Positions 3,953-47,593 of a DNA stretch of 64,000 bases are shown here, in pieces. This stretch comes from Bdellovibrio svalbardensis. Lineage in GTDB: Bacteria > Bdellovibrionota > Bdellovibrionia > Bdellovibrionales > Bdellovibrionaceae. Made by a program: the position numbers and the translations under genes. The stretch lies in contig NZ_JANRMI010000006.1 of the NCBI RefSeq assembly GCF_029531655.1, positions 1 to 64,000 on the forward strand, written 5' to 3'. The notes below the pieces were generated by a model. The model did no database searches, was not told where the DNA came from, and saw only the letters and a program-made list of their open reading frames with translations. The first letter of the stretch is position 1. Each line of letters starts with the position of its first letter.

Positions 3953-4236
3953 GGGGAGTGTTCGAAAACTTTCACGGATCGTTCCTGCAAATGCGGCACG
4001 ATCTTTTGAATCACGAGTTCCTGAAAATGCCGGGTCATGCGATGAGCCTCCACAGCTTCGGCATTCTTGTATTCTTCATAGATTAAAATATTTTGCGGAT
4101 GATGAGGGTCTTGGTAATAGTCATAGGTCAAGCAGCCAGGTTCAGCGCGTGAGGCCTTTTGCAAATCATTAAGAAACGTGAGAGTCGATGTTAAGGATTC
4201 CGCCTGCACAGTCCATCTTGCGACAATGACCACCAT
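3949..4236 (-). CDS. Antibiotic biosynthesis monooxygenase (ABM) domain protein
   Basis: A 95-residue one-domain protein of the dimeric alpha/beta ABM fold (YgiN-like). Visible family features are MVVIVARWTV at the start, SRAEPGCLTYDYYQDPHHP near the middle and FIYEEY-type strand ILIYEEYKNAEAVEAH. Such proteins act as small quinol monooxygenases or haem-degrading enzymes; the substrate is not predictable here. The start at 4236 is chosen because GGGAG lies 5 bases before it; a longer frame would overlap the YihY gene. It begins 14 bases after the YihY stop, so the two are one operon. Confidence 0.85.
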   Translation of the reverse strand: MVVIVARWTVQAESLTSTLTFLNDLQKASRAEPGCLTYDYYQDPHHPQNILIYEEYKNAEAVEAHRMTRHFQELVIQKIVPHLQERSVKVFEHSP

Positions 4237-45547: not shown

Positions 45548-46321
45548 TTAAGCCTTTTTGGCTTTTGCTTTCGCAGTGACATCAATCATGATTTTTTCAA
45601 CATCAGCCAAGTCAGCTTCAGTGATTTCATAAACTTGTTTGTCACCAATTCTTTCAATGATCGCATTAAACAATTCAGTTGAAAGGAATGAACGAACATT
45701 TCCTGATTGGTACTCACGCTCTTTTTCAGCATAAAGACCCAAGAATGTTTCATCGCGGAACCAAGTTTGCTTATTGGCTTTTTGAATGTGCGCCAATTCG
45801 TCATCGCTTGGGTCACGTTGCAAGAATTCAAAGAAGAAACCAGATGGTTTTCCACCCGGCAAGAACCACTCACCAGAGAAAACTTGAATCAAATTCTCGT
45901 GATCGTCTTTCAAAATCGGAGTCACGAACTGAACACCGCGCTCAAGGCAGTGCTCATAGAAGCCAATCAAGTCTGGAGTGCGCAATGCCAAATGCTGAAC
46001 ATGCGCCACGTTCTCATGGCCATCAAGCATTTGACGAACATGAGAAGGCTCATTAGCTGGCTCAGAAGGTTGAACGATCGCAAAGATCGTCGGAAGTGGA
46101 TCTTTCTCTTTCGGTTCCCAAGATCCCACCTTCGTAGCGTAAGTCATAGAAACGTCTTTTTCACCGTTTTTGCCTTTACGCTTTTTTTCATAAAGAAGAT
46201 CATCAGGAGTCGTACCAAAAATAATACGGAAAACCGCATAAGTCAGAATGTAAAGTTTTGGGTGAAACAACATCGTCGTATGATCGATGGTGAAATTCAT
46301 AAATGGCTTCTTAGTCATCAT
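45548..46321 (-). CDS. VOC-fold dioxygenase resembling the HPPD catalytic domain
   Basis: A 257-residue protein of the vicinal-oxygen-chelate superfamily. It aligns in outline with only the C-terminal catalytic barrel of 4-hydroxyphenylpyruvate dioxygenase, with a possible Fe triad His (FTIDHTTML), His (AHVQHLALRT) and Glu (GFFFEFLQR). HPPD has about 350 residues with an additional N-terminal barrel that is missing here. An insert (EKKRKGKNGEKD) and a long helical tail (180-257) are extra. It could be a diverged HPPD-like or glyoxalase-like enzyme. A GGAGGAAT-type ribosome site precedes the ATG. Confidence 0.75.
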   Translation of the reverse strand: MMTKKPFMNFTIDHTTMLFHPKLYILTYAVFRIIFGTTPDDLLYEKKRKGKNGEKDVSMTYATKVGSWEPKEKDPLPTIFAIVQPSEPANEPSHVRQMLDGHENVAHVQHLALRTPDLIGFYEHCLERGVQFVTPILKDDHENLIQVFSGEWFLPGGKPSGFFFEFLQRDPSDDELAHIQKANKQTWFRDETFLGLYAEKEREYQSGNVRSFLSTELFNAIIERIGDKQVYEITEADLADVEKIMIDVTAKAKAKKA

Positions 46322-46458
46322 TCCTCCAAGAATGAACCGATATTAGAAACCAAACTCCCACAGGTCAACTCAACAGCTCCCATAATTCCTCCTTGCTTGC
46401 CAACTAATGCGCCGCGGAGAGCCTAAAGTACTCGGTGGAGTCCCTCTTTAATGCGGGG

Positions 46459-46600
46459 ATTTGGTGAATAACTAAATCTTTGCCGGTGCTTCGTTCGGCA
46501 CGGCATCCTGCCTCGTCGCCGCCGGGCTGCGCCCGGTTCGCGCATCCTGCGCCGGCGAAGGCCTCTCTGCGACCAGCAAAGATTTAGTTATTCACCAAAT
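46459..46600 (+). repeat. Structured covarying element, copy 1
   Basis: Arms 46459-46483 and 46576-46600 are a perfect 25-bp inverted repeat around a 92-nt GC-rich core. The core holds an inner helix CTTCG/CGAAG, then GGCA(TCC)TGCC, CCGGGC(TGC)GCCCGG and GCGCA(TCC)TGCGC. The flanks GCGGGG before and TTTGCGT after are shared with copy 2. Copy 2 differs in the arms and hairpins but keeps every pairing (see findings). It could be a structured RNA or a cruciform-forming DNA element; no promoter was identified. Confidence 0.85.
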
Positions 46601-46755
46601 TTGCGTTGAAGGGGGCTTTTTGAGTTTTCTAGGGCTGGGGTGGAAAAAATTGGAAGGGAAGGCGTCGGATTAGGCAGCCTAAATCGCGGCGTATTTTTTT
46701 GCGCCCAATCCTTAGGTCATTTTCTTTCTTTGAACGAGGGGCGGCTCATTACGAA

Positions 46756-46900
46756 ATTTGCCGTGTAAGGAAATCCTTGATGGTCGTAGAGAGGCCTTCG
46801 CCGGCGCCACGATGGCGCGAACCGAGCGAAGCTCGGCGGCGATTGAGCCCGGATGGCGTGCCGACCGAAGCACCAGCAAGGATTTCCTTACACGGCAAAT
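46756..46900 (-). repeat. Structured covarying element, copy 2 (inverted)
   Basis: Arms 46756-46779 and 46877-46900 are a perfect 24-bp inverted repeat. Read on the minus strand the core aligns with copy 1 almost throughout, including GGTGCTTCG, TTCGCGC and CGCCGGCGAAGGCCTCTCT. Its hairpins are GCC(ATCCG)GGC, CCGAGC(TTC)GCTCGG and GCGCCA(TCG)TGGCGC. It lies 155 bases from copy 1 in the opposite orientation. Confidence 0.85.
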
Positions 46901-46930
46901 CCCCGCAATGACCCGTTCCCCACACGAGCG

Positions 46931-46970
46931 AAGAAAAAAAGACTGGGAGTGTCCACGTATGGGCACTCCC
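46931..46970 (-). terminator. Minus-strand intrinsic terminator
   Basis: Read on the minus strand, GGGAGTG and CACTCCC pair, with CCA/TGG inside a one-base mismatch, followed by a seven-T run. It probably ends transcripts from csbD, 120 bases upstream, before they reach the repeat elements. Confidence 0.75.
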
Positions 46971-47090
46971 AATTTGAATCAGGCGTTTTTAGGGCCGATT
47001 CGGAGATAATTTTTTGACTGTTTATTGGCATCTCGGGTTTTTACTTTCGTAATTACATTCAATCGCCTTTAACTTCATCAAATAACTATC

Positions 47091-47384
47091 TCAATGTTGA
47101 GCATCAGGTTTTCTAGGTTTGGGTTGATTCACATCGCTAGCATAACTAGTTTTGTTAATTTTCTCCTCGCTAGAAGTATCGCTGGCGCTCAATTTATTTT
47201 TAAATTCATTAAATTTTTTGGTCGCTTCCTCTTTTGACAATCCATAAGCCTTTTGAATTTGGCCTTCAAGTTTAGTCATATCACCTTTAAGGGAATCAAT
47301 TTCATCGTCGGTGAGTTTTCCCCAGGCTGTTTTAATTTTGCCTTTGAGAATCTTCCAGTCACCGCCTACGGTATCCTTGTTCAT
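47091..47384 (-). CDS. CsbD family stress protein
   Basis: A 97-residue protein of the CsbD (UPF0337) family, small hydrophilic stress-induced proteins of unknown action. The family repeat is visible: KDTVGGDWKILKGKIKTAWGKLTDDEID, then LEGQIQKAYGLSKEEATKKF. The tail from 70 is polar and disordered. AAGGAGG lies before the ATG. Confidence 0.9.
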   Translation of the reverse strand: MNKDTVGGDWKILKGKIKTAWGKLTDDEIDSLKGDMTKLEGQIQKAYGLSKEEATKKFNEFKNKLSASDTSSEEKINKTSYASDVNQPKPRKPDAQH

Positions 47385-47593
47385 AAGATCCTCCTTGTTA
47401 ACTCAATTGCACACCCGTTTTCGAAAATTTGAAATAGCAATGCGTGAACTTGTTAAAAAGCGCGGACCTCCATCAACATTTCTTGTCGACATGAAACATT
47501 TGGGGAGTAATGGCTGGTTACAACTGTTAGACACGGATTGTCTTTGGACGCATTAGATTTGCTACCTGACATATTTCTGAGTAGCGTTTGCTC

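Follow-up and report, generated by a model that had tools for sequence, protein, structure and literature searches.

Two facing copies of a structured element

The 64-kb window (the whole stretch of Bdellovibrio svalbardensis DNA that we analysed) contains two copies of a structured element, which face each other across a short spacer. Copy 2 follows a csbD-like gene, and a gene on the opposite strand starts 130 nt from copy 1. The features are:

46452-46605, plus strand: copy 1, whole match to covariance model R1 (162.7 bits, E = 6.8e-38)
46453-46463, plus strand: outer left motif of copy 1, GCGGGGATTTG, from end alignments; in many copies it includes a zone of G.T pairs (GGGG versus TTTT) that runs in one direction only
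46459-46483, plus strand: left (5') arm of copy 1, a perfect inverted repeat of 46576-46600 and the putative master arm (left arms have the local strand composition)
46484-46575, plus strand: conserved core of copy 1, from the consensus fold and pair counts
46497-46499 with 46561-46563, plus strand: P2 of the copy 1 core (GGC/GCC), from the consensus fold
46502-46512, plus strand: P2a hairpin of the copy 1 core, from the consensus fold
46516-46521 with 46553-46558, plus strand: P3 stem of the copy 1 core, from the consensus fold
46522-46536, plus strand: P3a of the copy 1 core, from the consensus fold
46540-46552, plus strand: P3b of the copy 1 core, from the consensus fold
46576-46600, plus strand: right (3') arm of copy 1, a perfect inverted repeat of 46459-46483 and the putative copied arm (right arms have inverted strand composition)
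46596-46604, plus strand: outer right motif of copy 1, CAAATTTGC, from end alignments
46606-46750, no strand: spacer separating copies 1 and 2, without an ORF of at least 80 amino acids
46751-46907, minus strand: copy 2, whole match to covariance model R1, facing copy 1 (170.7 bits, E = 6.2e-40)
46756-46779, minus strand: right (3') arm of copy 2, a perfect inverted repeat of 46877-46900
46780-46876, minus strand: conserved core of copy 2, from the alignment and consensus fold
46877-46900, minus strand: left (5') arm of copy 2, a perfect inverted repeat of 46756-46779

A preliminary description of this DNA had reported two inverted copies with perfect arms and compensated differences between them, and rereading the sequence bears this out. 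The arms are perfect inverted repeats exactly at these coordinates. Copy 2 is an inverted relative of copy 1 (complementarity of 81% over the 63 nt of I1 and 83% over the 54 nt of I2). Beyond a common ATTTG, the copies differ at 7 of the next 19 arm positions, and each of the seven differences is compensated in the opposite arm. Both copies also have the core hairpins and are flanked by GCGGGG and CAAATTT, as claimed. When folded as single-stranded DNA, the two copies have energy z-scores of -7.6 and -7.8, and none of 200 dinucleotide-preserving shuffles was as stable.

Just before copy 2, at 46940-46980, there is a likely minus-strand terminator of the csbD-like gene (GGGAGTG...CACTCCC and then a T-run). 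It escaped our terminator scan, probably owing to its long loop.

A dispersed family in Bdellovibrio and beyond

The two structures are not isolated: they belong to a dispersed, non-coding family that is found throughout the genus and patchily across the phylum. An initial DNA search found 11 copies in this genome, and a covariance model, built from the alignment and the consensus fold, raised the count to 15. Copies are present in 22 of 24 Bdellovibrio genomes, at about 3-26 per genome. Four relatives that were searched more fully had 26, 24, 10, and 11 matches, a few of which are antisense or fragmentary. Across the phylum, 30 of 369 genomes had matches; among the carriers are members of a distant family, whose genomes have up to 17 copies each, and of another family of the same class. 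The matches listed come to well over 150 in total. We found no match in Rfam at the gathering score or at a relaxed threshold, and no description among the open-licence papers that we searched. As the preliminary description had supposed, the family appears to be undescribed so far.

The element is about 155 nt long, with a conserved core of about 95 nt that contains four hairpins and with arms of about 25 bp. Several parts of the core are retained in most of the distant copies: the P2a hairpin, as CACGGCATCCTGCC or in variant form; AAGGCC, again sometimes as a variant; and hairpins whose loop is CATCC. Their stems reach up to about 38-44 perfect pairs. End alignments identify conserved outer motifs, GGATTTG on the left and CAAATCT on the right. 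The outer pairs run in one direction (56 G.T and no T.G). This suggests that the outer motif and the G.T zone are a candidate binding site, which the arm-copying model that we favor below would not explain.

We also noticed some peculiarities of individual copies and sites. In the loops of the core hairpins, TCC or TCG enclosed by a base pair occurs again and again, as in CATCCTG, CCATCGTGG, and CCTTCCAGG. Many copies, with arms that are otherwise perfect, have a recurring pyrimidine-pyrimidine mismatch (C.T, T.T, or T.C) a few base pairs away from the core. One 222-nt copy (L132, positions 4001-4222, genome G001) has an insert of about 66 nt in its P3b hairpin, and this insert bears hairpins of its own. 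Outside the phylum, an alphaproteobacterial MAG has a weak match to the model (L236, positions 885-971; 28 bits, E = 5e-5), which may be due to chance or may be a distant relative. Finally, upstream of a glyoxalase-like gene in G022 (L197), an orthologous place is occupied by a long, near-perfect palindrome, AGGTGCCAGGTCCTATTTACGG...CCGTAAATAGGACCTGGCACCT, whose sequence is unrelated to the family.

Pairing is probably maintained at the DNA level

We examined the pairing in 103 distinct aligned rows, of which a few are the same copies on the other strand. In these rows, 97.1% of cells are paired, as compared to 59.7% in shuffled rows and about 48% after a shift by one column. Both sides have changed in 53 of the 55 pairs; since the copies are related to each other, these counts are not counts of independent events. 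The covariation that the preliminary description had proposed to test is thus strong. Watson-Crick pairing is about 95% in the arms and 99% in the core. The arms pair even though they are close to unrelated across the family: the identity of arms between different copies is 0.53-0.56, versus 0.47 for shuffled arms, or near random.

RNA stems tolerate G-U pairs far more than A-C pairs. In the 91 distinct forward matches, to which we limited these counts, we found 24 G.U and 40 A.C in the arms and 5 of each in the core, so that neither strand favors G-U. Distant copies gave 24 G.U and 25 A.C in the arms and 3 of each in the core. As a control, we applied the same alignment and folding programs to RNase P from 20 Bdellovibrio genomes, and found 147 G.U and only 3 A.C, using a fold that was derived from the alignment rather than curated. 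Because neither strand of the element has the signature of RNA, the pairing is probably maintained at the DNA level. The preliminary description had proposed that selection keeps a multibranched fold. The structure and its strong covariation stand, but a fold kept as RNA does not agree with these counts.

The right arm looks like a copy of the left

The two arms of an element differ in strand composition. On the element strand, the G/T fraction is 0.607 in left arms and 0.385 in right arms; in the near flanks it is 0.575 on the left and 0.566 on the right. Since the left arm resembles its surroundings and the right arm is inverted relative to them, it is the right arm that looks copied. The other families are skewed in the same direction, with an excess of G-C over C-G and of T-A over A-T. 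Some of this asymmetry could reflect selection that tolerates G-U, in combination with template switching, as has been proposed for RNA genes (PMC8794818).

The likeness between the two sides continues beyond the element: the sequence to its right often mirrors, in decayed form, the sequence to its left. When we compared the 68-nt left flank to the reverse complement of the 68-nt right flank, the score averaged 25.0 for flanks of the same element and 15.3 (standard deviation 3.7) for flanks of mismatched elements, and scores of at least 30 were reached by 25% of the former and 0.3% of the latter. In 11 of 73 copies, the mirror includes the last 15-57 nt of the upstream coding sequence, so in these cases the left side must be the original.

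At some sites, relatives lack both the element and its mirror. The site of L094 has neither in G009 (L173), and the site of L132 has neither in G020 or G009 (L166 and L169). Absence from a relative could be due to loss instead of a pre-insertion state. Three other sites without an intact copy do look like later losses: L163, with a deletion between TATTTT repeats; L161, where a truncated copy is present; and L159, where traces of the mirror persist and a deletion seems likely. The element-free site of L094 lacks the GGATTTG motif. Thus, at least part of the left arm arrived with the element, which rules out arms that derive wholly from the target.

How the arms and the core change between orthologs

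At 18 orthologous sites in two close species, whose coding flanks are about 96% identical, arm identity ranges from 0.41 to 1.0 and roughly tracks that of the adjacent intergenic DNA. We therefore reject the idea that the arms are hypermutable, as they diverge about as much as their neighborhood. The arms of orthologs remain complementary throughout, indels included. One pair of orthologs captures an intermediate. The right arm of L096 has changed in a patch, and its left arm is that of the ortholog L126, whose two arms match; the comparison reads as a half-corrected state in a two-step process. Another copy of the element is not a plausible source of the arms, as we found no donor among the copies that we compared, except for a few related pairs of arms. 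We saw no inversion of the spacer among the aligned orthologs.

The core behaves differently. In several orthologs, the P3 module has been exchanged blockwise between variants, and at most of the distant orthologous sites, the core resembles its ortholog no more than it resembles paralogs. Both observations suggest that exchange between copies shapes the core.

A model of repeated arm copying

Our preferred reading, to which we give a probability of roughly 55%, is that the element is a palindrome whose core folds back, whose right arm is repeatedly copied from the left arm, and which spreads rarely, as a non-autonomous repeat at the 3' ends of genes. The conserved, multi-hairpin core would act as the fold-back site. 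When the strand that reads 5'-left arm-core-3' is single-stranded or being synthesized, the core would fold and the 3' end would snap back, and a polymerase would then copy the left arm into a new right arm by an intrastrand template switch. We think that this copying step is snap-back polymerization. Sometimes it would include the left flank, up to the coding end of the upstream gene. Over repeated rounds, the arms would stay complementary while their sequence drifts freely, and the outer parts of the mirror, being refreshed less often, would decay. New sites would be reached by rare transposition.

The preliminary description had set arm-to-arm copying aside. For the arms, it is the explanation that fits best, given the inverted composition of right arms, the mirror that runs into upstream coding ends, and the L096/L126 intermediate. 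The reason for setting it aside, that copying explains the core hairpins poorly, was sound: these hairpins covary and stay perfect despite their position between the arms, which means that the core must be subject to some other process. The core is presumably conserved by exchange between copies or by selection. Template switching has been proposed to keep hairpin arms perfect, with intrastrand switches correcting to the 5' base, and it predicts an excess of the kind that we see in the arms of the element (PMC8794818).

A bolder form of the model, which we offer tentatively and would not bet on, is that this is a self-templating genomic element. The DNA core would make and remake an inverted repeat from whatever sequence lies to its left, including the end of the neighboring gene. 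Only the core would be inherited as sequence, and the arms would be inherited only as a relation.

Alternative explanations

Instead of arm copying, selection might keep the pairing. A protein such as a RAYT-type HUH (Y1) transposase could recognize the folded single-stranded DNA, so that the element would be a REP-like or attC-like substrate with little copying between its arms. This would account for pairing at the DNA level, and the outer motif with its one-directional G.T zone does resemble a binding site. Copies have also moved, as indicated by copy numbers that vary across species, by arms that are common to different copies (L080 and L081; L262 and L268), and by sites that are unoccupied in relatives. 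Y1 genes are present in most Bdellovibrio genomes, but their presence does not track copy number. G013, G017, and G008 have 12, 6, and 11 copies and no Y1 match, G003 and G004 have Y1 and no copies, and we found no copies in the 12 Y1 loci that we searched. We reject RAYT/Y1 as a required partner on these grounds. Also, selection alone leaves the inverted composition of right arms and the mirrored coding sequence outside the element unexplained. Overall, we consider protein recognition without copying to be unlikely. Two other origins can be rejected: a composite transposon ended by two copies, as the spacers of different pairs are dissimilar and most copies are single; and a reverse transcriptase, as RVT_1 is missing from most carriers.

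The position of the copies might instead point to a function at the 3' ends of genes, as a two-way transcription terminator or as an mRNA-protecting structure behind genes and between converging ones. As the preliminary description had anticipated, a position between converging genes is common. By simple gene calls made for this analysis, converging genes flank 36 of the 73 copies and diverging genes flank 1; of 357 element-free intergenic regions that were called in the same way, 43 are convergent and 92 are divergent. In 32 of the 36 convergent sites, the left end is the one that is nearer to a gene (p = 2e-6), and if the upstream gene points at the element, the median distance from its stop codon to the left end is 27 nt. 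Among the matches listed, all adjacent pairs of copies are face to face, plus and then minus; there are 16 such pairs in the genus, and some are orthologous between species. However, the T-run that follows the stem of an intrinsic terminator is absent: the end alignments have no conserved T-run behind either end, and a terminator scan of 46300-47400 found no terminator-like site. Several copies come after the gene's own terminator, and the G-U test speaks against selection on a transcript. Loss of those insertions that damage genes or promoters would be expected to produce the same bias in position. We regard a 3'-end function as quite improbable.

Least of all do we expect a structured non-coding RNA made from one strand of the element. 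Such a family is suggested by the changes on both sides of so many pairs, by the multibranched fold, and by opposite-strand loops that are sometimes CAGGATG, which we take to resemble the repeats of Csr-type sRNAs; but this GGA is missing from some loops (many P3b loops are ATCGT), Rfam has no match, and the ratio of G.U to A.C is nothing like that of RNase P from the same genus.

Implications

Compensatory change in the arms of a stem is usually seen as arguing strongly that selection maintains an RNA fold. In this element the covariation is very strong, and still the asymmetry of the arms and the G-U test point to pairing at the DNA level, which is a warning for the discovery of RNAs by covariation. 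The family also lends itself to studying how template switching might build and keep palindromes, and it adds an apparently undescribed repeat to the genomes of predatory bacteria, located directly after genes and in many cases between converging ones.

Comparison to known systems

The attC sites of integrons are imperfect palindromes whose structure is kept more than the sequence of their arms. Copies of this element, unlike attC sites in cassette arrays, are scattered singly or arranged as converging pairs.

MITEs and other small non-autonomous repeats with terminal inverted repeats are likewise short, non-coding, dispersed, and intergenic. They differ from the element in that its center is conserved and its inverted repeats differ in nearly every copy, with only the short outer motif in common. 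Element-free sites have no obvious direct duplication, at ends that are defined to less than base precision.

REP, BIME, and REPIN sequences with RAYT are small, dispersed, multi-copy extragenic palindromes as well, and Y1 genes are in most of our genomes. REP/RAYT elements have a palindrome of 20-40 bp, with one end tagged by GTAG or CGTC (PMC3733652). In contrast, our element is about 155 nt long and has four hairpins in its core and arms that are not conserved; its end alignments lack either tag and have GGATTTG and CAAATCT instead, and the expected association with Y1 genes is not seen in the genomes or in the Y1 loci.

There is also a likeness to the hotspots of template switching at quasipalindromes and to hairpins maintained by template switching, in which the arms are homogenized by copying one from the other (PMC8794818, PMC8604942). 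Directional homogenization of the arms within a palindrome is what we see here, indirectly, by comparing sequences. What differs here is that it seems to recur throughout a dispersed family whose core is conserved, at each of the copies, and to reach into the neighboring genes.
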